Positions 8,453 through 44,461 of a DNA stretch of 64,000 nt are shown one piece after another. Origin of the DNA: Agromyces bracchium. GTDB taxonomy: Bacteria; Actinomycetota; Actinomycetes; Actinomycetales; Microbacteriaceae. The notes beneath the pieces were generated by a model that saw only the letters and a list, made by a program, of their open reading frames with translations, was not told the origin of the DNA and did no database searches. The position numbers and the translations under genes were made by a program. The number at the start of each line of letters is the position of its first letter. Positions within the stretch are counted from its first letter, which is position 1. The DNA lies in NCBI RefSeq assembly GCF_009709675.1, contig NZ_WMLB01000033.1, positions 1-64,000 of the forward strand, in the 5' to 3' direction.

Positions 8453-8830
8453 CGCGGCGCTGTCGCGTTGAGGGTCCCTTCATCGGGACTGCTTTTCGGG
8501 CGGGGCAACCGAGACCGACCTGCGTCAGCGGGGCGGACGGCGTCGCGTTCCACGCCGATGCACCTCTCCGGGCTGCCGTCTGCCGGCCGGCGCTCGCCAT
8601 TCGCGGATGTCGTCACGATTGGCGGGTTCGAAGCCCGTTGCACCCGCACAACCTGACGACAACCGCACCCGCCGATCCACGTTCCCGGTCCTCCCAGCCG
8701 GTCCCACTCCGGCGCGACATCGTGGCGGCCGACGAGATCTCGGTGAAGGACCGGCTAACGGGCGCGCCGGGCACGATCGCGTTGCCTTTACGCTTCCGAC
8801 ATGCAGTCGTCCGTGCTCGCCGCGATCGTT
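8453..8830. other. Non-coding stretch with a tRNA-3'-end-like fragment
   Basis: No convincing gene was found. At 8621-8650 GCGGGTTCGAAGCCCGT forms a TPsiC arm (5-bp stem, TTCGAAG loop) followed by TGCACCCGCA, which resembles the 3' half of a tRNA without the 5' half or CCA. Such fragments are left at attachment sites of integrated elements. The rest has lower GC patches and no promoter, RBS or coding bias that I can support. Confidence 0.35.
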
Positions 8831-19345: not shown

Positions 19346-19391
19346 TTGACCATTCGCGTCGATGGGGCTACATTTGGGGAAGCGCTTTCCC
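19346..19391 (+). promoter_or_regulatory. Promoter and LacI-type operator of the first sugar ABC transporter
   Basis: -35 TTGACC (19346-19351), 17-bp spacer, -10 TACATT (19369-19374), then the 16-bp operator GGGGAAGCGCTTTCCC (19376-19391) over the transcription start. The same operator and geometry occur at 35051. Confidence 0.85.
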
Positions 19392-19441
19392 ACCCAGCGT
19401 GAATGCACCAGGCAGACAGAGACGTTTCCGGGAGGACAACG

Positions 19442-23582: not shown

Positions 23583-25949
23583 TCAGTGGATTGCGCGCCA
23601 GACTGTCGAACGGAGGCCGACGAGCCGGTCCAGCGAACCGAGCGGCCCGTCGTGCGTCCGTCGGCGCGCGGCTGCAGCCGGCGGAAGGTGGATCTTGGCG
23701 TCGGGGTGGAGCTGCAGGATGCGCAGCACGACCTGCGCAGAGGCGTGCACGCTGGCCGCGTCGAGGTCGACGAGCCACGGCGTGCCGTCCCAGAAGCGGT
23801 CGGCGACCGTGCGGCCGTCGACCTCGAGGGTCGCGACATCGCCCGCCCACTCGACGAGGAGGGTGCGCATGACGCCGTCCTCCGGTGAGCCCAGTCCCTC
23901 GAGCGGGATGCGCACGGCGAGCCGATCGAGGTCGTAGGCGGTCGGCGCGGCACGGCGAGCGGGCGTTCCGCCGAAATCCGCGCGGGCGAGGTTCGGGTCG
24001 AACCGCACGACCTCCGTGTGCCGGACGGGGAGACGCTGCGAGTCCGTCCCGTCGAAGGCGACGCCGACGAAGGCGCCGGCGGTCGGGTCGTAGCGCTCGA
24101 CGTGCGGCGTCCGGTCGGACCGGGCGCGGAGTGCATCGTCGTCGAGCCAGAGCGGGCTGCGCGAGCGCAGCACCATCCGCTCGCCCGAGCGCGCGTCGAG
24201 CACCCAGAGTTCGTCGGCCCATGTCGCGGGGAGGATGAGCAGGTCGAGCTCGGCGTGGTCGTCTCGCAGGCGATGGAGGGTCGGACCGTCGTCATCGCGG
24301 GCGTCGACGAGGAGGGGTGCGGACGCGACATCCGTGCTCACCGAGACCGTCGCCGGAACGCCCGGCTCGGCGAGCAGCACCAGCGTGGGCACGGCTGCGG
24401 CAGCACTCGTCGATGGATCCGGAGTGCGGTCGGCACCGAGCACCGTCACGACCGACGCGGTCGCCCACTCCACGACTGCGCCGCCGAGCGCGAGGCCGAG
24501 GGGCCAGCGGGCGACCGTGCCCGGCGGGATCGTCAGCGGCGGCCGCGACGACGGCGGCACGAGCGCCGTGCCGCTCGCCAGGGCGACCTCGAAGCGCACC
24601 CCGGCCACCGCCGCGAGCGCGTCGAACGGCTCGTGGTGCCCGACGAACAGGAACCCGGCGTCGCCCTCGGAGCGCACGGCCCAGCGGAGCGTCGACCGGT
24701 CGTCATCGGCCCGCGGCATCCGCTCGGGGAGTCGCGACGTCATCGGCGCCAGGCGGTCGCCGAATGCGGCGAGGAACGCATGCTGGATGCGGAGCGCCGC
24801 ATGGCTCGGCGCGAGGATGCCCGCCGCCCCGATGGGCGCATGGAAGTCGTAGTCGAAGCGCGGCAGGTCGTTCGGGTAGCCGGTCGCGAGCGATTCCTGC
24901 AGGCCGTCACCCGGGTTCAGGCCGCCCGCGTACATGTAGTAGCCCTGCCAGTTCGACCCGGACCCGAGCTTGGCGTTCGCGACCGTCGCGAGGTCGAGCG
25001 CGCCCGGCAGCGGCCGACGGTGATACGCGGTCGCCATCCCGCCCCCGAGCTCGCACGTCGCGACGGGGAAGTCGGGGGAGGCCGCGGCGCGGGCGCGCGG
25101 TGGGGCGGCGGTGCCGGCGGCGGCCGGGGCGTCCGCCCGCTCACCGCGCAGGTCGGCGCCGATGCCGGGATCGTCCCAGTCGTGCGAGAACCGGAAGTGG
25201 GCGCGGAAGCTCGACGGCCACGGCGCATCCGCGTCGACCCAGAACCCGTCGGCATACCCGCCGAACACGGGCATCACCACTTCCGGCGGGAGTTCTGCGC
25301 CGTCCCAGGCCGTCGCCGTCCAGATCGGCGCCGCCAGGCCGGCCTCGCGGGCGAGTCCGACGAGCGTCGCGAGGTGACCCGGCCGGTCGATGAGCTCGTT
25401 CTCGACCTGGATGCCGATGACGGGGGAGTCGGGCCCGCAGAGCGGCGCGAGCTCGCGGCCGATCAGGTCGAACCAGCCGCGCACGAGGTCCAGGTACGCG
25501 GGGTCGTCGGTGCGATGGGCGACGGATGCCTCGGCCACCCAGTGCGGGAATCCGCCGTTGCGCACCTCGCCGTGGCACCACGGCCCGATGCGGACGACGA
25601 CGTCGAGCCCCACCTCGGCGGCGAGCCGCACGAACGCGGCGACGTCGAGGCCGTCGGCGAAGCGCGGCTCGCCGCGCACCGGCTCATGGTGGATCCAGAT
25701 CACGTACGTCGAGACGACCGTGACGCCGCCGGAGCGCATCAGCTGCAGCCGCTCGCGCCACTGCGAACGCGGCACGCGCGAGTAGTGCAGCTCGCCGGAG
25801 ACCGGGATGGCAGGACGCCCGTCGAGCTCGACGTACCGGCTCGTCAGCGCGATCCGTCCGCGGCGATCGCGCTCGTTCGACATGGCCGGGCGGGTGAGCG
25901 GCGGCCGGGTCTCGAGGGCTGCGAGACGCGGCGGCATCCGCTCGGTCAC
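23583..25949 (-). CDS. GH35-type beta-galactosidase
   Basis: A 788-residue glycosidase with a TIM-barrel N-terminal half. Diagnostic segments in order are IPVSGELHYSRVP, VSTYVIWIHHEPVRGE, VVVRIGPWCHGEVRNGGFPHW, the acid/base Glu in GIQVENEL and a likely nucleophile in ATCELGGG. The C-terminal half is beta-rich, as in GH35 enzymes that release terminal galactose. No signal peptide is seen, so it acts on imported oligosaccharides. The GTG start at 25949 overlaps the previous stop (GTGA). It is the last gene of the AraC-box operon. Confidence 0.87.
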   Translation of the reverse strand: MTERMPPRLAALETRPPLTRPAMSNERDRRGRIALTSRYVELDGRPAIPVSGELHYSRVPRSQWRERLQLMRSGGVTVVSTYVIWIHHEPVRGEPRFADGLDVAAFVRLAAEVGLDVVVRIGPWCHGEVRNGGFPHWVAEASVAHRTDDPAYLDLVRGWFDLIGRELAPLCGPDSPVIGIQVENELIDRPGHLATLVGLAREAGLAAPIWTATAWDGAELPPEVVMPVFGGYADGFWVDADAPWPSSFRAHFRFSHDWDDPGIGADLRGERADAPAAAGTAAPPRARAAASPDFPVATCELGGGMATAYHRRPLPGALDLATVANAKLGSGSNWQGYYMYAGGLNPGDGLQESLATGYPNDLPRFDYDFHAPIGAAGILAPSHAALRIQHAFLAAFGDRLAPMTSRLPERMPRADDDRSTLRWAVRSEGDAGFLFVGHHEPFDALAAVAGVRFEVALASGTALVPPSSRPPLTIPPGTVARWPLGLALGGAVVEWATASVVTVLGADRTPDPSTSAAAAVPTLVLLAEPGVPATVSVSTDVASAPLLVDARDDDGPTLHRLRDDHAELDLLILPATWADELWVLDARSGERMVLRSRSPLWLDDDALRARSDRTPHVERYDPTAGAFVGVAFDGTDSQRLPVRHTEVVRFDPNLARADFGGTPARRAAPTAYDLDRLAVRIPLEGLGSPEDGVMRTLLVEWAGDVATLEVDGRTVADRFWDGTPWLVDLDAASVHASAQVVLRILQLHPDAKIHLPPAAAARRRTHDGPLGSLDRLVGLRSTVWRAIH

Positions 25950-30200: not shown

Positions 30201-30531
30201 CGCGCGTCTTGTCGTATCCGATGTGGATGCGCCCCCCGAGTTCAGGGAGCAGCACGAGCCGCACCCACCGGTTCTCGAGGTGGATGGCGCGCCAGGCGCG
30301 CGGCCGGGACACGGCCTCGATGCGGTCGGTGAACGGGATCGGGTAGACCCGTCCGCTGGAGCCCTGGTAGACCCGGCGGTCGAGGAACAGCGGATAGCGG
30401 TCGGGTTCCGAGGGCTCGTAGGTGTCGATGACGAGCGGCTCCTCCCAGCACGCGACGTCGCCCGCCTCGAGTCGAGCCCGCTCGGCGGGCGGCGGTTCGG
30501 GCAGCTGGATGCGACGGTGCAGGGAACTCAC
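27253..30531 (-). CDS. DUF5107 domain protein with C-terminal TPR array
   Basis: A 1092-residue protein. Residues about 1-400 form a DUF5107/mutarotase-like sugar-binding region with PELGGRIHIGYDKTRDYDFFYRN, WVSGGVEFNWPQHH and GGYDHDAGAGFVHWAD. From about 520 onward the sequence is a long array of TPR-like helical pairs (ELETALEHVETALERL, YFLEAVRRDPGDSRARLQLA and similar). The function of this architecture is not established. It is always seen with glycosidases, so a carbohydrate epimerase or glycosidase scaffold is a guess. The start is GTG at 30531, 7 nt after -10 TACGCT, so the message is probably leaderless, under AraC control. Confidence 0.8.
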   Translation of the reverse strand: MSSLHRRIQLPEPPPAERARLEAGDVACWEEPLVIDTYEPSEPDRYPLFLDRRVYQGSSGRVYPIPFTDRIEAVSRPRAWRAIHLENRWVRLVLLPELGGRIHIGYDKTRDYDFFYRNNVIKPALVGLAGPWVSGGVEFNWPQHHRPATFLPVETCIERASDAEVVVWHSDLDPLQRMRGTHGIRLRGDSSAIELEASLVNRTDVPQTFLWWANVAARSHQRYQSFFPTDVRYVADHARRAITAFPAADRPYYGVDYPALATDRPGADRIDVASNIPVPTSYMITDTVDDFFGGYDHDAGAGFVHWADRAIAPGKKQWTWGAGAVGQAWDRHLTDGDGPYVELMAGVFTDNQPDFSWLAPGETRRFSQFWYPIQAIGPAVQATLEAALGLEADASSARLGVVTTAAHEVVRVVLRRRGGDDLGEWLAAIAPGEPFIATVELDVALGVVSRDDLEVDVTVGERSLVSWRAHAVIDGEPWVATEPAAPDEIAGTDELALTGLHLVQYRHPTRPAEPYFLEAVRRDPGDSRARLQLARIAFARGELETALEHVETALERLTRRNLNPEHGDAHLLRALVLERLRRREAAADAFGKAGWDGALSLPAALGRARLALAAGDAELSLAFADTACAADPTSAAAIASRVVALRALGREAVASRDLDRARAADPLDPLLAALDGALDAVDPRTLLTMAHEVFRMGDHGRGIALAERAAAAPVTAFGNPAPLAAYALAAFLDAVGRRSDAAAARADAAAADPTLAFPHGLDDLQALEDALDADPEDSRAAGYLGCWLLDAGRTEAALLALDRAIAAGIGDPVVWRNAAVALVNAGGDLADADRRYGEALRRSPGDARLVYERDQLAAIRHVPSIERLAAIEAAGPEVLIRDDLAIAYANLLVDVGRASDALAFLDGRAFQPFEGGEGQVIRVFDRASAAVARGLMTEGDARAAADLLRDGIRIPEHLGEGRHPADPVAERFVLLGDALNAAGDRDAARDAWQRALGGGPLAAAARTPDERDAWVGIACTRLGDETGALAVWGSLEHRADALEAAADRVDYFATSLPELLLFSVDTAERRREQAARLRELAAAGRLEGMRAA

Positions 30532-30538
30532 GCGATCG

Positions 30539-30605
30539 AGCGTAGGTGCGCGCGAGCGCTGCGGACATGGGCGATCACGGATACGGCATGGACGTTCCGA
30601 TGATC
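30539..30605 (-). promoter_or_regulatory. AraC-dependent promoter of the DUF5107-GH5-GH35 operon
   Basis: A minus-strand -10 TACGCT (30539-30544) is followed 7 nt later by the GTG start. A 37-bp box (30569-30605) with CGATC and then GGCATGGACG-T-TCCGATGATC lies upstream. The second part begins 41 bp from the -10, exactly as at 34948. Confidence 0.75.
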
Positions 30606-30659
30606 GCGATCGTCGCTGTGACCGCCGCGTCGCGCGGCGACCGATGCGAGGATGGAGGG

Positions 30660-31523
30660 ATGGAGCGTCGCGACGGGTTCGAGCACCAGCGGCTGTGCGT
30701 CGTGCCGCGTCCGCTCGTCGACGCCGCGCTCGCCCGGCCCGTGACCCGCCGTCTCGTCGCGACCGACGCCGGGCTGTTCCCGGCGGCGGAGGGACATCTC
30801 CGGCGCCGGCCCCGCGGAGCCACCGAGGCGATCGTGATCGTGTGCGTCGACGGGGCCGGATGGGTCGACCTCGCGGGCGCGCGCACTCGGGTCGCGCCCG
30901 GGACCGCGGTGCTGATCCCGCCCGGCGCCCCGCACGCCTACGGCGCCGACGACGACCGGCCGTGGACGATCTGGTGGTGCCACCTCAGGGGCAGCGACCT
31001 CGGCGACCTCTGGGAGGCCGTCGGCGCATCCGCCGAACGGCCGACCGTGTCGCTGCGCTCGGTCGACCGCGTCACCGCGCTGCTCGACGAGATCGTCTCG
31101 GGGCTCGAGCGCGACCAGTCGCCGGCCCGGCTGCTCGCGACGGCCGGGATCGCGTGGCGGCTCATGACCCAACTCGCCGTCGACCGGCGCCTGCCCGAGC
31201 AGGGCGAACCGCTCGAGCGGGCGATGCGCTACCTGGAGGAGCGGGTGGACGGGAGCATCCGGGTGAGCGACCTCGCGCGCCTCGTCGGGGTCTCGGCGTC
31301 CCACCTCGGCGCCCTCTTCCGCGAGGCGACCGGCGGCGGCGTCCTCGCGCATCACACCGCGCTGAAGATGGCACGTGCTCGCCTCCTGCTCGACACGACC
31401 GACCTGCACGTGGCCGAGGTCGGCCGCGAGATCGGCTACTCCGACCCGTTCTACTTCTCGCGCCAGTTCAGCCGGACGCACGGCATGAGCCCGACGGCCT
31501 ACCGCGAGCACCGCAAGGGGTGA
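30660..31523 (+). CDS. AraC-family transcriptional regulator
   Basis: A 287-residue activator with an N-terminal cupin-like arabinose-binding domain (TEAIVIVCVDGAGWVDLAG, then PGTAVLIPPGAPHAYGADD) and two C-terminal helix-turn-helices (IRVSDLARLVGVSASHLGALF and VAEVGREIGYSDPFYFSRQF, ending in MSPTAYREH). GAGG-rich SD precedes ATG 30660. It is divergent from the DUF5107 operon and convergent with the ABC operon, and both operon promoters carry the same box. It therefore very probably activates both in response to the transported sugar or its breakdown product. Confidence 0.93.
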   Translation: MERRDGFEHQRLCVVPRPLVDAALARPVTRRLVATDAGLFPAAEGHLRRRPRGATEAIVIVCVDGAGWVDLAGARTRVAPGTAVLIPPGAPHAYGADDDRPWTIWWCHLRGSDLGDLWEAVGASAERPTVSLRSVDRVTALLDEIVSGLERDQSPARLLATAGIAWRLMTQLAVDRRLPEQGEPLERAMRYLEERVDGSIRVSDLARLVGVSASHLGALFREATGGGVLAHHTALKMARARLLLDTTDLHVAEVGREIGYSDPFYFSRQFSRTHGMSPTAYREHRKG

Positions 31524-31559
31524 GGCGACGGATGCCGCACCGCCGTGGCATCCGCCGCC
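31524..31559. terminator. Bidirectional terminator-like hairpin between convergent genes
   Basis: CGGATGCC (31529-31536) pairs with GGCATCCG (31547-31554), extended by GGCG/CGCC. It lies exactly between the araC stop and the permease stop. The stem is made of the genome's recurring GGATGCC word. Confidence 0.75.
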
Positions 31560-31563
31560 GGTC

Positions 31564-32493
31564 TCAGCCCTTCGTGGCGCCGGCGGTCAGGTCGGCGCGC
31601 CAGAACCGCTGCAGCGAGACCATGAGGACGACGAGCAGGACGACGGAGACAGCCGAGCCGGTGACCACCAGGGTCGTGAAGGCGGGGTCGCGCTGCGTCT
31701 GGGAGTTCCAGAGGGTGAGGCCGAGCGTGATCGGGAACCGCTTCGGGTCGTTCAGCATCACCAGCGGCAGCAAGTAGTTGTTCCAGATCGTCACGAACTG
31801 GAACAGGAAGACCGTCACGATCGCGGGGGTCATCATGCGGGTCGCGATGCCGCCGAAGATGCGCAGGTCGCCGGCGCCGTCGATCCGCGCCGCCTCGATC
31901 ACCTCGTCGGGGACCGAGGCGTTCGCGTGGATGCGCGCGAGGTAGACGCCGAAGGGACTGACCATGCACGGCAGCAGGACGCTCCAGTACGTGCCGGTGA
32001 GGCCGACGGTGTTCAGCAGGAAGTAGAGCGGGAGCGCGATGACGGTCGCCGGGACGAGCACGCCGCCGAGGATGGTCCAGAACACCGCCTCCTTCGCCGG
32101 GAAGTCGTACTTGGCGAACGCGTACCCGGCGGCGACCGAGAGCACGGTCGCCACGGCGGCGCCCACGCCCGAGTAGACGACGCTGTTCACGATCCAGAGC
32201 GAGAAGGCGCCGCCGTCCTGCGTGAACAGGTCGACGAGGTTCTCCCAGGCCTGCGGGCTGTCGGAGAACCACAGCCCGAAGGTGGAGTAGAGGTCGCCGG
32301 GGGACTTCGTCGCGGCGATGAGCACCCAGGCGATGGGGAGCAGGAAGTAGATCGCTGCGAGGACGAGCAGGCCGTTCACGGCGACCGAACTCGCCGCGGA
32401 GCGTCGCGCGCGCCGACTCGTCTCGCGGTCGGGGCCGTGGGCTCGGCCGTGTCCGTCGACGGATGTCGCGGCGGGGGCGATCGAGGTCACCAT
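31564..32493 (-). CDS. Sugar ABC transporter permease (MalG type)
   Basis: A 309-residue permease with an N-terminal cytoplasmic basic stretch, the first helix near VNGLLVLAAIYFLLPIAWVLI, EAA loop DEVIEAARIDGAGDLRIFGG, and a MalG-type C-terminus ADLTAGATKG. The ATG overlaps the end of the MalF-type gene by 7 nt. It belongs to the transporter co-regulated with the GH35/GH5-like/DUF5107 operon by the AraC box. Confidence 0.92.
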   Translation of the reverse strand: MVTSIAPAATSVDGHGRAHGPDRETSRRARRSAASSVAVNGLLVLAAIYFLLPIAWVLIAATKSPGDLYSTFGLWFSDSPQAWENLVDLFTQDGGAFSLWIVNSVVYSGVGAAVATVLSVAAGYAFAKYDFPAKEAVFWTILGGVLVPATVIALPLYFLLNTVGLTGTYWSVLLPCMVSPFGVYLARIHANASVPDEVIEAARIDGAGDLRIFGGIATRMMTPAIVTVFLFQFVTIWNNYLLPLVMLNDPKRFPITLGLTLWNSQTQRDPAFTTLVVTGSAVSVVLLVVLMVSLQRFWRADLTAGATKG

Positions 32494-33464
32494 GCGCGAT
32501 TCCCCTTCCGGTTGACGATCCTCAGGAACAGGGCGGAGAAGCCGAACGCGAGCAGCGCCACGATGACGGCCATCGCCGCGGCGAGGTTCGGATTGCCCTG
32601 CGCGAACGCCTGGTTGTAGGCGGCGAGGTTCGGGGTGTAGTCGGAGCTGATGGCGGTCGTCAGGGGGCGCAGCACGAGCGGTTCGACGAAGAGCTGCAGC
32701 GTGCCGATGATCGTGAAGAGGGTGATGAGGACGATCGACGGGCGGATGAGCGGGAGCTTGATGTGCCAGATGAGTCGCCACTCGCCCGCACCGTCGAGTC
32801 GCGCGGCCTCGTAGAGCTCTGCGGGGATCGCGTCGAGGGCGGCGATCAGGATCAGCATGTTGTAGCCGGCGAAGCCCCAGAGCGCGATGTTCGCGATGGC
32901 GAAGAGCGCGGCGTCGGAGCTCAGCGGGTTCACCCCGTCGACGCCGAGCGCCCCGAGGGCCTGCAGCACCGGGCTCGTCGCCGGGATGTAGAGGAAGCCC
33001 CACAGGAGCGACGCGATGACGCCGGGCACGCCGTAGGGCATGAAGTACGTCACCCGGAAGATGCGGGGGAACCGTGCGGCCGCGGCGCCGAGCAGGAGCG
33101 CCAGCCCGAGCGCGGTGACGACCATGAGGGGGACCTCGATCCCCGCGAACGCGAGCAGGCGGCCGAGGCTCGCGACGAAGGACGCGCTCGTCAAGGCGCC
33201 GACGTAGTTGTCGAGGCCGACGAACTCGCGGGTCGGCGCGCCGAGTCCGAGCCCGCTCGAGCGCTGCGTGAACAGGCTGTCGACGATCGCGAAGACGATC
33301 GGGGCGATGAAGAACGCGGCGAACATCACGAGGAACGGGACGAGCAGCACCCACAGGGCGCCCGGGGTCCGGCGTCGGCGACGGGATGCCGCGGGGGCGG
33401 CGTCGCCTGACGCGATCGGGGTCCGCTGCGCGCTGTGCGGCGCCGCGGTGGCGGTGGCGGTCAC
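32487..33464 (-). CDS. Sugar ABC transporter permease (MalF type)
   Basis: A 325-residue permease. The GTG at 33464 is chosen because it starts the last stretch before the basic SRRRRRTPG and the first helix LWVLLVPFLVMFAAFFIAP. The EAA loop is AELYEAARLDGAGEWRLIWH. The frame is open further upstream, but that extension crosses a strong hairpin (33501-33526) and lacks a ribosome site. It forms the membrane channel with the MalG-type partner. Confidence 0.9.
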   Translation of the reverse strand: MTATATAAPHSAQRTPIASGDAAPAASRRRRRTPGALWVLLVPFLVMFAAFFIAPIVFAIVDSLFTQRSSGLGLGAPTREFVGLDNYVGALTSASFVASLGRLLAFAGIEVPLMVVTALGLALLLGAAAARFPRIFRVTYFMPYGVPGVIASLLWGFLYIPATSPVLQALGALGVDGVNPLSSDAALFAIANIALWGFAGYNMLILIAALDAIPAELYEAARLDGAGEWRLIWHIKLPLIRPSIVLITLFTIIGTLQLFVEPLVLRPLTTAISSDYTPNLAAYNQAFAQGNPNLAAAMAVIVALLAFGFSALFLRIVNRKGNRAW

Positions 33465-33500
33465 GGTCGGGCTCCTCGTGGTGGTGGGGATGCGGGAGGA

Positions 33501-33526
33501 CGTGCCGGGCCGTCCGGCCCGGCACG
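33501..33526 (-). terminator. Intercistronic hairpin between binding protein and permeases
   Basis: CGTGCCGGGCC pairs with GGCCCGGCACG around a 4-nt loop, 11-bp perfect stem, no T-tract. Its position matches that of the hairpins after the other three solute-binding genes. Confidence 0.8.
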
Positions 33527-33535
33527 CCCGTCGGC

Positions 33536-34858
33536 TCACTCGGCGACCGAGATGCCCTTGTCCTCGAGCGCCGCGGTGAAGTCCTCCTGCGTCTGCCGGT
33601 ACGCCTCGGTGAGGGGCGTTCCCGACTCGACGGCGGACTTCACGTTGTCGGTGAGGTCGGCGAAGAGCGTCTGGGAGAGCGGCGGCCACTTCCACGTCGC
33701 GGCGACCGCGGCGTCGGACTCGGCGAACACGTCCCAGATGTCCTGCCCGCCGTAGAAGGCGAACACCTCGGGGTCGTCCTGCAGGCTCTCGATCGACTCG
33801 AGGTCGGTGATGGCCGGCCACCCGGCACCGATGCTCGTGAGGATGCTCACGCTCTCGGGGTCGCTGTTGAGCCAGAGTGCGAACTCCGCGGCCTCAGCCG
33901 GGTGCTCGGAGCCCTTGAGGACGACGTTGGCGGAGCCGCCGGCCCAGGTCGCGGACACGGTCTCGCCCTCGCTCCACTGCGGCATCGCCGCGACGGCCCA
34001 GCTCCCCGCGGTGTCGGGTGCGGTGCCGCGGACGATCGCGTCGGCCCAGGATCCCGAGATCCAGCTCGCGACGTTGCCGCTCTGCATGTCGGCGTTCCAC
34101 TCGCTGGAGAAATCGGCCTCGATCTTCACGAGGTCCTCGTCGATGAGCTTCTGCCAGAACTCGGCGACCTTGAGCGTCTCGTCGTCGTCGATCGCGACCT
34201 TCCAGGCGTCGCCGTCGACGGTGAACCACTCGCCCCCGCCCTGCTGGGACAAGCCGATGAGCCACGGCGCCTGGTTGAAGGCGAAGGCCGCGATGTAGCG
34301 GTCCGGGTCGGACGCGCGGATGGCCTTCGCCGCCTCGTAGTACTCGTCCCATGTGGTCGGGGCCGAGAGTCCGAGCGAATCGAAGATGTCCTTGCGGTAG
34401 AACTGGCCGAGCGGGCCGGATGCCTGCGGGACGGCGTAGACGCGGTCGTCGAAGACGCCCGTCTCCCACTGCCACTCGGTGAAGCGGTCGCCGGCGTCGC
34501 CGACGTGGTCGGTGATGTCCTCGAGCGCGTCGTTCACGAGGAACTCGGGGATGGCGTCGTACCCGACCTGGGCGACATCCGCGGGGTTGCCGGCCTGGAC
34601 CGCGGAGATCATCTTCGCGTAGCCGCCGTCGGGGCCGGCGGTGATCGTCTCGAGCGTGACGTGGATGTCGTCGTGGGCGTCGTTGAACGCGTCGACGGCC
34701 TGGTCGATGTTCGGGACCCAGGACTGGAAGGTGAGCTCGACCGGGTCGCCGGAGTCGGCGGACTCCGAGCCGGCGGCGCACGATGCGAGGCCGATCACGG
34801 CGACCGCGGCGACGGCGACGCCGGCGACCACGCGGCGACGGGCGCGATGCTGCTGCAT
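33536..34858 (-). CDS. Sugar ABC transporter solute-binding lipoprotein
   Basis: A 440-residue lipoprotein with lipobox GLASC (Cys27) after a basic-hydrophobic leader, then a PBP-like domain beginning VELTFQSWVPNIDQAVDAFN. The ATG at 34858 is supported by AAAGGAG 7 nt upstream. An ATG further upstream would precede that site. It is only distantly like the other two binding proteins of regions 3 and 5. It is the first gene of the AraC-box transporter operon. Confidence 0.92.
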   Translation of the reverse strand: MQQHRARRRVVAGVAVAAVAVIGLASCAAGSESADSGDPVELTFQSWVPNIDQAVDAFNDAHDDIHVTLETITAGPDGGYAKMISAVQAGNPADVAQVGYDAIPEFLVNDALEDITDHVGDAGDRFTEWQWETGVFDDRVYAVPQASGPLGQFYRKDIFDSLGLSAPTTWDEYYEAAKAIRASDPDRYIAAFAFNQAPWLIGLSQQGGGEWFTVDGDAWKVAIDDDETLKVAEFWQKLIDEDLVKIEADFSSEWNADMQSGNVASWISGSWADAIVRGTAPDTAGSWAVAAMPQWSEGETVSATWAGGSANVVLKGSEHPAEAAEFALWLNSDPESVSILTSIGAGWPAITDLESIESLQDDPEVFAFYGGQDIWDVFAESDAAVAATWKWPPLSQTLFADLTDNVKSAVESGTPLTEAYRQTQEDFTAALEDKGISVAE

Positions 34859-34901
34859 GGGAATGCTCCTTTGCATGGTGTGGGGAAGCGGTGCGGAGGC
34901 G

Positions 34902-34968
34902 ACGCTACGCGCGGCCCGCGGGCGATCCCATAGCCGATCGCCCCCGCGGCATGGACGATCCGATGATC
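34902..34968 (-). promoter_or_regulatory. AraC-dependent promoter of the second ABC transporter
   Basis: -10 TAGCGT (34902-34907) and a 37-bp box (34932-34968) with CGATC and GGCATGGACG-A-TCCGATGATC. The two parts have the same distance from the -10 as in the DUF5107 promoter. The 21-bp core differs at one position only. Confidence 0.78.
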
Positions 34969-35018: not shown

Positions 35019-35066
35019 TTGACCACTTGAATCGTTGCACGCTATGGTGCGGGGAAGCGCTTTCCC
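35019..35066 (+). promoter_or_regulatory. Promoter and LacI-type operator of the orphan binding protein
   Basis: -35 TTGACC (35019-35024), 18-bp spacer, -10 TATGGT (35043-35048) and operator GGGGAAGCGCTTTCCC (35051-35066), identical in sequence to that at 19376. Confidence 0.85.
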
Positions 35067-40494: not shown

Positions 40495-41898
40495 TCAACC
40501 CGTCGCGCGCGCCTGCGCCGCGGCGTAGCGCCGACGGATCTCCGGTCGCGTGTCGACCGGCATCGGATCGCCCGCCTCGATGGGCCAGTCGGGCCGCTCG
40601 CCGGTCAGCACCCACGCGGCCTGCCGCGCGGCGCCGTCGGCGACGTACTCGCCCGGAGCCGGCACCACGACCGGCACGTCGAAGACCTGCGTGGCGGCGA
40701 CCTGCACGGCCGGGTTCTGCGCCGCGCCGCCGATCAGCAGGATGCGCCGCGCCTCGACGCCCTGCGCTCGGACGGCGTCGAGCCCGTCGGCGAGCCCGCA
40801 GAGCAGACCCTCCACCGCCGCGCGGGCGATCGACGGGCGGGTCGTGTTCGCGAGCGTGAGCCCGGAGAATGAGGCGGTCGCGTCGGGCAGGTTCGGCGTG
40901 CGCTCACCCTCGAAGTACGGCACGAGCACGGCGCCGGATGCCCCGGGCTCGGCCTCGAGTGCCAGGCGGCCGAGTTCGGCGTGGTCGACGCCGAGCAGTC
41001 CGGCGGTCGCGTCGAGCACGCGTGCGGCGTTCAGCGTCGCGATGAGCGGCAGGAACCGGCCGGTCGCGTCGGCGAATCCCGCGACGGTGCCCGAGGCGTC
41101 GGCGACGGCGGCATCCGTCACCGCGAACACCGTGCCGCTCGTGCCGATCGACACGACGACGTCGCCCGCCGCCGCGTCGAGGCCGAGCGCGGCGCCGGCG
41201 TTGTCGCCCGCGCCGGGCCCGACGAGGATGCCGACGGGGGTCTGCCCGGCGGCCTCGCCCGGGCCGAGCACGCGCGGCAGGACCGCGTCGTGCCCGAGCG
41301 CGCCCACGAGGAGGTCGCGGTCGTAGCCGTCGGCGCCCCAGTACGCGGTGCCCGACGCGTCCGATCGGTCGGTCGCGAGCTCCTCGAGCACCGGGCCGAG
41401 CGGCGACTCGCCCGCGGGGCCGTACCCGCGCAGGCGCCAGGTGAGCCAGTCGTGGGGGAGCGCGACGGCGGCGACGCGCGCGGCGTTCCCGGGCTCGGCG
41501 TCGCGCAGCCAGCGCAGCTTCGTCGCGGTGAAGGAGGCGACGGGCACGACGCCCGTGCGGCGCGCGTACTCGTCGGCGCCGACCTCGTCGATCAGGTCGC
41601 GCGCCGCCTGCGCTGAACGGGTGTCGTTCCAGAGCAGGGCGGGGCGGATGACGCGGCCCTCGCCGTCGAGCACGACCATGCCGTGCTGCTGGCCCGCGAT
41701 CGAGATCGCCTCGACCCCGTCGAACCCGCCCGCGTCGGCGAACGCGGTGAGCAGGGCGCCCCACCACGCGGCGGGGTCGACCTCGGTGCCGTCGGGGTGG
41801 GCGGCGCGACCTGAGCGCACGAGCGCCCCGGTCGCGGCATCCCGGATCACGACCTTGCACGACTGCGTCGACGAGTCGACGCCGGCGACGAGCGGCAC
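40495..41898 (-). CDS. xylB: Xylulokinase
   Basis: A 467-residue FGGY-family kinase converting D-xylulose to xylulose 5-phosphate. Motifs seen are [13 protein letters not shown] at the N-terminus, [45 protein letters not shown] and [12 protein letters not shown]. The GTG at 41898 follows AAGGAGGACATC. The longer in-frame ATG lacks an SD. It lies downstream of xylA with 153 nt of palindromic DNA between, on the same strand, so they are probably co-expressed. Confidence 0.95.
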
Positions 41899-41920
41899 GA
41901 TGTCCTCCTTCTGTGGAAAC

Positions 41921-41996
41921 TCACTCGAGTGATGCACCTCTCGCCGAGTGATACGGGTGCCGCAGTATCACTCGGCGGAGGGTGTATCACTCGGCG
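41921..41996. repeat. GAGTGAT palindrome cluster between xylB and xylA
   Basis: TCACTCGAGTGA (41921-41932) is a perfect palindrome. CGCCGAGTGATAC (41942-41954) and GTATCACTCGGCG (41965-41977) form a 13-bp perfect stem, and GTATCACTCGGCG is repeated at 41984-41996. It is a hairpin with a spare arm, able to switch pairing. Confidence 0.85.
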
Positions 41997-42051
41997 GGGG
42001 TGGGGCGGCGGGGGTGAGTGCGTGGGGCGAGGGCGGGCGGGATGAGGCCGG

Positions 42052-43242
42052 TCAGCGCGCGCCGAGCAGGTGCTCGGTGGCGAGCTGCTGCAGGCGCACG
42101 AACCCGAAGCCCTTGCCGCCGAGGTAGACCGACGGGTCGAAGTCCTCGTACGCCGAGCGGTCGGCGAGGAAGTCGTCGTAGGTCTCGCCCGGGCTGAGGG
42201 TCGGCTGCGAGAGCTCCGGCACGCGGGCGGCGGCGAGCGCCTCCTGCACCTCGGGGTCGGCGCGGAACGCCGCGGCCCGCTCCTTCAGCAGCAGGTAGGT
42301 GCGCATGTTCGCGGCGGCCGACTCCCAGACGCCGGTCTCGTCCTCGGTGCGCGAGGGCTTGTAGTCGAAGTGGCGCGGGCCCTCATAGGCAGGCACGCCG
42401 CCGGGGCCGCCGTTCTCGAGCAGGTCGACGAGCGCGAACGCGTTGTGCAGGTCGCCGTGGCCGAACACGAGGTCCTGGTCGTACTTGATCCCGCGCTGGC
42501 CGTTGAGGTCGATGTGGAAGAGCTTGCCGTGGTAGAGCGCCTGCGCGATGCCGGCGGCGAAGTTGAGGCCCGCCATCTGCTCGTGGCCGACCTCGGGGTT
42601 GAGGCCGACGAGCTCGGGGCGCTCGAGCGAGTCGATGAACGCGATCGCGTGGCCGAGGGTCGGCAGCAGGATGTCGCCGCGCGGCTCGTTCGGCTTCGGC
42701 TCGATGGCGAAGCGGATGTCGTAGCCCTTGTCGGTCACGTAGTCGCCGAGCAGGTTCACGGCCTCGCGGTAGCGCTCGAGCGCGGCGCGGATGTCCTTCG
42801 CCGAGTCGTACTCGGCCCCCTCGCGGCCGCCCCACATGACGAACGTCTTCGCGCCGAGCTCGGCGCCGAGGTCGAGCTGGCGGAACACCTTGCGGAGCGC
42901 GAAGCGGCGCACCTGGCGGTCGTTCGAGGTGAACCCGCCGTCCTTGAACACGGGCGCCGAGAAGAGGTTCGTGGTGACCATCGGCACGATGAGGCCGGTG
43001 TCGGCGAGCGCGCCCTTCAGCCGGTCGATCTGCGTCTGGCGCTCGGCGTCGGACGAGCCGAAGGCGAACAGGTCGTCGTCGTGGAAGGTGAGGCCGTAGG
43101 CGCCGAGCTCGGCGAGCTTCTCGACGACGTGCACGACGTCGAGCGCGTTGCGGGTCGGGCCGCCGAACGGGTCGGTGCCGTTGTAGCCCACGGTCCAGAG
43201 GCCGAAGGAGAACTTGTCGTCGCGGGTGGGCGCGCTGGCCAT
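42052..43242 (-). CDS. xylA: Xylose isomerase
   Basis: A 396-residue class I (actinobacterial) xylose isomerase converting D-xylose to xylulose. Visible are [15 protein letters not shown], the catalytic-His strand [22 protein letters not shown], the metal Glu strand [25 protein letters not shown] and [16 protein letters not shown]. Length and motifs match the Streptomyces-type enzyme. ATG 43242 follows AAAGGCGG. The promoter carries a ROK-type XylR operator, although the divergent neighbour is a LacI gene. Confidence 0.97.
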
Positions 43243-43272
43243 GGGTGATCCGCCTTTCAGCGTCATCGATGA

Positions 43273-43316
43273 TTTGTTGGCAAAACAAACATAACCGGAT
43301 GCCGCGCCTGCGGCAA
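43273..43316 (-). promoter_or_regulatory. xylA promoter with ROK/XylR-type operator
   Basis: Minus-strand -35 TTGCCG (43311-43316), 17-bp spacer and -10 TATGTT (43288-43293), overlapped by TTTGTT-GGCAA-AACAAA (43273-43289). This inverted repeat resembles sites of ROK-family XylR repressors. No such regulator is in the window. Confidence 0.78.
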
Positions 43317-43366
43317 GTCCGGATCGTCCGGTCGGGAGCCATTTGTTCCTGAATTCCACAAAACCC

Positions 43367-43423
43367 TTGCGAAACGCTTCGACACCTGCGTAGAGTCCCT
43401 CGCAATCAGTCGAAACGCTTCGA
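43367..43423 (+). promoter_or_regulatory. Promoter and two operators of the LacI gene
   Basis: -35 TTGCGA (43367-43372), 18-bp spacer, -10 TAGAGT (43391-43396). GCGAAACGCTTCGA (43369-43382) overlaps the -35 and TCGAAACGCTTCGA (43410-43423) lies downstream. The regulator likely represses itself. Confidence 0.78.
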
Positions 43424-43438
43424 GACGATGGAGTCGAC

Positions 43439-44461
43439 ATGGCGAAGATCCACGAGGTGGCCAAGGCCGCCGGCGTGTCCATCAGCACCGTGTCGTACGC
43501 GCTGAGCGGCAAGCGCTCGATCTCGCCCGACACCCGTCGGCGCATCGAGGAGGCGGCGCGCGAGCTCGACTACCGGCCGAACGCCGGTGCTCGCATGCTC
43601 GCCGGCCGTCGCACCCAGATCTTCGCGCTGACCGAGCCGTTCCGGGCCGACACCCACGCGCCCGCGCACATGGCGTTCGTGCTCGCGACCTCCATCGCCG
43701 CGCGCAGGTTCGAGTACGACATCCTGCTCCTCACCGAGGAGGAGGCGTCGGCCGGCATGCGCCGGGTCGCGTCGAGCGGGCTCGCCGACGGCGTGCTCGT
43801 GCTCGACGTCGCGCCCGACGACGAGCGCGTCGACCTGGCGCGGCGCATCGCGCTGCCCACCGTGTTCATCGGCGTGCCCGACGACCACGAGGGCCTCGTC
43901 TGCGTCGACCTCGACTTCGAGGCCGCCGCGGCGCTCGCGGTCGACCGGCTGGCCGACCTCGGTCACCGCTCGATCGGGTTCGTCGGGCATCCGCCGACGG
44001 CGTACGAGAAGTCGAACTTCCCGCCGCGCGTGCGGCGGGGGCTCGAGGCTCGCGCTGCCGAGCGCGGCCTGGACTGCACCACCGTCCTGCCCGAGTCCGA
44101 CGGTCCGCGCCGGGCGCCGGTCCGCGACGCCGTGCGCGGCCTCGTCGAGGCCGGTGCCACGGCGCTCGTGCTGCACTGCGACGACGCGAGCCACGCGGTC
44201 GCGCTCGACGAGCTCGCGACGCTCGGCCGTCGCGTGCCCGAGGAGGTGTCGGTCGTCTCCGTGGGGGCGACCTTCGACACCGCCGCCTTCCACCCGCCGA
44301 TCGACTCCGTCCCGCTCGTGCCGAGCGCGTCGTGCGAGCTCGCGGTCGAGCTCGCCATGCGCATGGTCGACGGCGGCGAGGTCCCGGCGGCCGTCCACCT
44401 GATCGCCCCCGAGTACCGGGCGCACGGCTCGACCGCGCCGCCCGGAGGCGCGTCGGACTGA
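43439..44461 (+). CDS. LacI-family regulator of the alpha-xyloside transporter
   Basis: A 340-residue repressor whose HTH starts at the N-terminus ([20 protein letters not shown]) and is followed by the hinge and sensor domain ([46 protein letters not shown]). Three palindromes of the form TCGAARCGCTTCGA flank it, two in its own promoter and a perfect one before the binding-protein gene downstream. It therefore controls itself and the transporter/alpha-xylosidase operon. The effector is probably the imported xyloside or xylose. Confidence 0.93.

Follow-up and report, generated by a model that had tools for sequence, protein, structure and literature searches.

Two promoters with a shared direct-repeat box outline a candidate AraC-controlled sugar regulon around a DUF5107 protein in Agromyces bracchium

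The window analyzed here is a 64-kb stretch of Agromyces bracchium DNA (contig NZ_WMLB01000033.1, positions 1 to 64,000) from a genome of 4.16 Mb, in which the own-genome searches described below were made. An araC gene lies on the plus strand between two operons on the minus strand (Table 1). In map order, the genes for a GH35-like protein, a cellulase-like protein and a DUF5107-TPR protein are followed by araC, and then by two permease genes and the gene for a solute-binding protein (SBP). Beyond the latter, a divergent SBP-GH42 operon adjoins. A preliminary description of this locus, made from the sequence alone, had proposed that the two operons form one regulon marked by an AraC box in each promoter. 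The position of araC between the operons and the two-operon extent of the regulon were upheld.

Table 1 Coordinates of the boxes, the −10 elements and the genes at the locus
Feature	Position in the window	Strand	Remarks
Box 1	30566..30605	−	Direct repeats: distal 30604..30587 ATCATCGGAACGTCCATG; proximal 30576..30566 GATCGCCCATG
Box 2	34929..34968	−	Direct repeats: distal 34967..34950 ATCATCGGATCGTCCATG; proximal 34939..34929 GATCGGCTATG
−10 TACGCT of the DUF5107 operon	30539..30544	−	The −35 place reads TGTCCG, not a −35 hexamer
−10 TAGCGT of the SBP operon	34902..34907	−	The −35 place reads TGGGAT, not a −35 hexamer
araC, AraC-type regulator, 287 aa	30660..31523	+	Cupin-like ligand domain and HTH_18 (Pfam)
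DUF5107-TPR protein, 1092 aa	27253..30531	−	GTG start
Cellulase-like (PF12876) protein, 436 aa	25946..27256	−	4-bp overlap with the DUF5107-TPR gene
GH35-like protein	23583..25937	−	Last gene of operon 1; ATG at 25937 picked by eye
SBP (solute-binding lipoprotein), 440 aa	33536..34858	−	Pfam SBP_bac_1 8.9e-37; Shine-Dalgarno-like AAAGGAG
Permease 1, ABC importer	32487..33464	−	Pfam BPD_transp_1 9.9e-14; start picked by eye
Permease 2, ABC importer	31564..32493	−	Pfam BPD_transp_1 2.3e-17; start picked by eye

The boxes were found where the preliminary description had put them, at 30569-30605 and 34932-34968. Each contains, as it claimed, a 21-bp core, GGCATGGACGNTCCGATGATC (30585-30605 and 34948-34968), with a single-base difference (T/A) between the copies and an outer CGATC at equal offset. 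A distance of 41 bp separates the near end of the core from the minus-strand −10 in either promoter (30544..30539 and 34907..34902). The proposed extent of 37 bp was slightly too short: the element goes 3 bp further at the lower end, to 30566 and 34929. The shorter frame cut off the end of a second repeat; the full element spans 40 bp and consists of two GATCGTCCATG-like direct repeats with a 21-bp period. The two boxes are identical at 31/40 positions; the intervening spacer differs between them, whereas the repeats agree. Both read on the minus strand, as the two operons do, box 1 before the DUF5107-TPR/cellulase-like/GH35 genes and box 2 before the SBP-permease-permease genes. When a position weight matrix of the element was compared with itself at shifts of 1–30, the score was positive at shift 21 only.

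In both promoters the proximal repeat overlaps the −35 place, if a 17-bp spacing is assumed, and a sigma-70 promoter search gave no match at box 1 or box 2. The DUF5107 GTG (30531..30529) begins after a 7-nt gap behind the −10. Among 50 DUF5107 sites, the first ATG or GTG is found 6–7 nt past the −10 in 28, and no TANNNT occurs at offsets 20–22 in 10. The DUF5107 mRNA is predicted to be leaderless, and probably is so.

The element is rare in its own genome. The core with up to 3 mismatches gave 2 matches in the window, as compared with a mean of 0.01 in 100 shuffles, and 4 matches in the genome (the two boxes with 0 mismatches and two others with 3), while a reversed-pattern control gave 0. 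A 68-position promoter model trained on 29 relatives, with the window left out, detected the boxes with E values of 1.5e-10 and 2.7e-8; the next match in the genome, a partial one, had an E value of 0.10. A strict two-repeat pattern allowing 0 mismatches had no match in the own genome, because each box departs from it. The genome search for further copies, as proposed in the preliminary description, thus ended at two strong sites in 4.16 Mb, and the occurrence at background frequency that it had named as contrary evidence was not found.

The same element was recovered without the window. We mapped 80 named loci by tblastn, 40 actinobacterial and 40 not. An AraC relative was found in 39 of the 40 actinobacterial loci (all but L057); by hand count, 26 of the 40 have a divergent araC/DUF5107 pair. 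De novo expectation-maximization (EM) was carried out on divergent araC/DUF5107 spacers, namely, 33 from other genera (22 actinobacterial and 11 not; 30 reach 68 bases) and 20 from the same genus. The window was excluded, as were three named Agromyces loci, duplicates of genus genomes. This procedure recovered TCgTCCAtG-N11-atCgnCCAT-N20-TAgCgT, which comprises the repeats and the −10, with log-likelihoods of 583.6 and 617.9 (40 starts) versus 141–165 for three shuffles per set (10 starts). A run on 52 other-genus sequences that included coding DNA locked onto the araC coding start and was discarded for the spacers-only analysis. On the window, the matrix from the other genera scored the boxes at 38.1 and 37.9 bits and the next match at −1.7, a lead of about 40 bits. 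Of 65 unique spacers, a set that includes those behind the matrices, 62 had a box scoring 8 bits or more (L024, L063 and L101 dropped). TANNNT starts 21 nt (37 spacers) or 22 nt (14 spacers) past the box in 51/62, while all other offsets from 0 to 39 gave 5 matches.

The layout of the two promoters matches, to within 1 bp, that of E. coli araBAD (araI1-araI2), whose pair of direct half-sites overlaps the −35 (PMC7408454). In both systems a cupin-helix-turn-helix (HTH) regulator is encoded beside its divergent operon, the half-sites are direct with a TCCAT core, and the proximal half is over the −35. The TAGC repeat of araBAD has a spacing of 21 bp, equal to the period of the window boxes, and the distance from the distal TCC to the −10 is 47 bp in E. 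coli and 48 bp here. Unlike araBAD, the window half-site has no TAGC, the −10 reads TAGCGT or TACGCT, the first gene is probably leaderless, and other genes are controlled.

From the araBAD-like layout, together with the lack of a sigma-70 promoter at the boxes, we infer class II activation. The local AraC would be a class II activator of both operons and would probably repress its own gene from the shared site; we assign this reading a probability of roughly 0.87. An AraC dimer would occupy the two direct repeats with one DNA-binding domain on each, 21 bp or two helical turns apart. Placed over the absent −35 by the proximal repeat, AraC would take the −35 role and recruit RNA polymerase to the TAGCGT/TACGCT −10. 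A sugar ligand in the cupin domain would switch AraC on, the SBP operon (the SBP and two permeases) would import the sugar, and the DUF5107-TPR/cellulase-like/GH35 operon would process it. Occupancy of box 1, close upstream of araC, would repress araC. This autorepression is suggested because the distal repeat is near the araC start (a median of 21 bp to the extrapolated start in 49 spacers; 54 bp in the window itself).

We consider it unlikely that AraC binds the boxes but mainly represses, or switches by looping, for example between boxes 1 and 2, which are 4.36 kb apart. E. coli AraC both represses and activates, and it also loops (PMC7408454), and the closeness of box 1 to araC would suit such a role. 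However, a proximal repeat over a −35 place that carries no −35 hexamer is what activation predicts, and in several genomes of the genus there is just one site.

The class II activator reading connects the box to this particular AraC, and the distribution of the box among relatives bears on that connection. In genus and family surveys, a site was counted at E ≤ 1e-3. Within the genus, sites were found in 20/26 genomes with this AraC and in 2/34 without it (p 9e-9), a comparison that is partly circular in that the model had been trained on 14 of these 26. When these training genomes were removed, the counts were 6/12 versus 2/34 (p 0.002); when the genome of the window was also removed, they were 5/11 versus 2/34 (p 0.006). 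In the family, sites were found by hand count in 22/42 genomes with DUF5107 and in 3/157 without it (p 8e-15). This comparative evidence supports a tie between the box and this AraC lineage.

Where the module has been rearranged, as in several relatives, the box stays with its genes. In L177, it precedes SBP (E 0.009), DUF5107 (0.002) and cellulase-like (4e-7) genes, each as its own unit, and in L183 it precedes cellulase-like (6e-7) and DUF5107 (0.011) genes. In G007, araC has no adjoining SBP operon, and one site was found. At E ≤ 1, 49 loci gave 66 matches; of these matches, 17 were picked by hand and traced to the open frame that follows. Among the genes so reached in other relatives are those for a GH36 alpha-galactosidase (L056), an aldose epimerase (L176) and a further SBP (L170); a GH27-type alpha-galactosidase (L065) is a weaker case. 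ABC exporter-type genes, which are unexpected in a sugar-uptake regulon, are also found behind it in two same-genus genomes (L170:14239-16029 and L175:4005-5777). A DUF4380-like protein (29.1 bits; the Pfam cut-off is 29.4) is encoded behind the box, beside DUF5107, at L171:12662-13633, and a similar frame at L172:3522-4499 is also behind a box. The DUF4380-like proteins are perhaps a second family of obscure role in the same pathway.

It is decidedly improbable that another regulator, encoded elsewhere, reads the boxes while the local araC is a bystander. This explanation draws on the fact that binding of the boxes by AraC is itself something that we infer, and on the sites in the two AraC-less genus genomes (G010 and G036) and the three DUF5107-less family genomes. 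However, site presence follows this AraC lineage, a TCCAT repeat at araBAD spacing suggests that the reader is of the AraC type, and the site in G036 looks like a leftover. In the latter genome, the box (L168:5734-5777) has no same-strand gene of a known family behind it, and it is probably the leftover of a lost SBP operon. That the likeness of the boxes, 4.4 kb apart, stems from a recent functionless local duplication or from chance is barely credible, because the spacer differs while the repeats agree, the motif emerged de novo without the window, the expectation in the window is 0.01, and the other-genera matrix and the own-genome model search contradict it too.

Several points weigh against activation by the local AraC through direct repeats. 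One is that the inverted self-comparison scores 11.2 versus 10.7 for the direct one. It scores too because CATG and GATC are palindromic, and the direct orientation therefore rests on the flanking bases. Another is that, of the two repeats, the proximal is the weaker, and the −10 hexamers depart from the canonical TATAAT. Of 4906 first-look candidates in the own genome, the model search went on to score 150. In the family survey, two draws of 199 genomes were taken as identical, and some genomes may coincide with training loci. Sites are missing in 6/26 genus genomes with this AraC and in 20/42 family genomes with DUF5107; either they have diverged or the model overlooks them. There was no convincing gene behind the sites in L169, L174, L179 and L123 or behind the L170 site at 8577. 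The last point is that the second HTH (HTH2) of the AraC protein resembles that of E. coli AraC, but this stretch is generally conserved across the AraC family. The HTH2 recognition helix had a mean identity of 0.62 to that of the window in 43 proteins below 50% identity, and it was not used as evidence.

The AraC protein itself (Pfam AraC_binding 7.5e-20, HTH_18 3.3e-18, HTH_AraC 4.2e-15) fits the AraC/XylS type with a cupin domain and a double HTH, and it matches the DNA-binding domain of E. coli AraC, 2k9s, at E 1.8e-14. Its best NCBIfam model is the arabinose AraC (PRK10572), at 104.7 bits and below the cut-off of 208, so that it does not qualify as the arabinose equivalog.

The preliminary description had left the substrate of the system unnamed; our analysis points to a galactoside, although this is no more than a lead. 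The nearest solved relatives of the SBP are 6q5g/6h0h, followed by 7vfq, 7vfr and 2z8d. These include Bal6GBP (6H0H, E 1.1e-42) and GL-BP (2Z8D, E 9.9e-39) of bifidobacterial galactoside importers, which bind beta-1,6-galactobiose and lacto-N-biose, respectively; the similarity to the window SBP is distant. In the B. lactis locus, the importer is paired with a GH42 beta-galactosidase (PMC8106489). The window importer differs from this pairing in that it accompanies GH35, cellulase-like and DUF5107 proteins, with GH42 in the neighboring operon. The GH35-like protein is closest to beta-galactosidases, and the cellulase-like protein is a relative of 3gyc, a 'putative glycoside hydrolase'. Residues 1–480 of the DUF5107-TPR protein have a predicted fold (mean pLDDT 84.4) that matches the solved relative 5cd6 and then GalM 4bze (E 1.1e-11). 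This N-terminal part is similar to the galactose mutarotase superfamily in predicted fold, at about 12% identity and a TM-score of 0.41 by query, and TPR repeats follow it; the fold search also returns non-enzymes, such as YidC. A galactoside appears to be the best fit because of the SBP relatives, the closeness of the GH35-like protein to beta-galactosidases, the alpha-galactosidase and epimerase genes behind the boxes of relatives, and the mutarotase-like DUF5107 fold.

Two other features of the window concern sugar genes. The palindrome-like GGGAAGCGCTTTCCC occurs exactly at 19377-19391 and 35052-35066, upstream of two other SBP genes (at 19403+ and in the SBP-GH42 operon, 35112+). With up to 3 mismatches, it has 7 matches in the window versus 1.96 expected, and 2 of 100 shuffles reach 7. 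We take it to resemble a LacI-type operator, and its sites would form a separate regulon that shares an intergenic region with box 2. In addition, the genes for an FGGY sugar kinase and a xylose-isomerase-like protein at 40495-43545 (−) possibly form another sugar cluster.

To examine the reach of the box beyond Actinobacteria, we scanned the 40 non-actinobacterial DUF5107 loci with a matrix from 26 actinobacterial sites. Among the 18 loci with an AraC relative, the best match is within 260 bp upstream of DUF5107 in 9 and just upstream of AraC in 2 (L073 and L098). Only one of the 22 loci without AraC has its best match so placed (L080, at a contig end; Fisher p 0.002 for 9/18 and 0.0002 for 11/18). 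The scores, which range from 10.1 to 33.6 bits, are modest, and matches at unrelated places in AraC-less loci reach 19.4 bits (L079); therefore, position, not score, carries the cross-phylum argument. Besides this background, it speaks against conservation that 7 of the 18 loci have no top match beside DUF5107 or AraC and that in L086 the best match (10.1) hardly exceeds the second (10.0). This placement is weaker evidence than that from the Actinobacteria. We see about even chances that AraC, the two-repeat box and DUF5107 form an ancient unit whose DNA code was kept across Actinobacteria, Alphaproteobacteria (including Pleomorphomonas and Ancalomicrobiaceae), Verrucomicrobia and Planctomycetes, with the regulator down to 27–41% identity; the phyla are as given by the titles of the records. 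In that case the code could serve to trace complete galactoside regulons, and DUF5107 would belong to them as a mutarotase-like, sugar-acting family that is so far undescribed.

A literature search on DUF5107, AraC class II activators and regulons, Actinobacteria, Microbacteriaceae and Agromyces, with subscription literature mostly outside its scope, returned no title describing this regulon. The shared box is real, well supported by the sequence, well conserved and ordinary in kind, a fresh example of known control, and its possible cross-phylum reach may be notable to the specialist. It gives a concrete and testable candidate regulon, with one regulator, two promoters and one box grammar, around DUF5107, a family of obscure function, and with its sites one can search genome after genome for genes of the same pathway. 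A further suggestion is that bacteria far removed from the enterobacteria use the araBAD promoter layout, though with another half-site.

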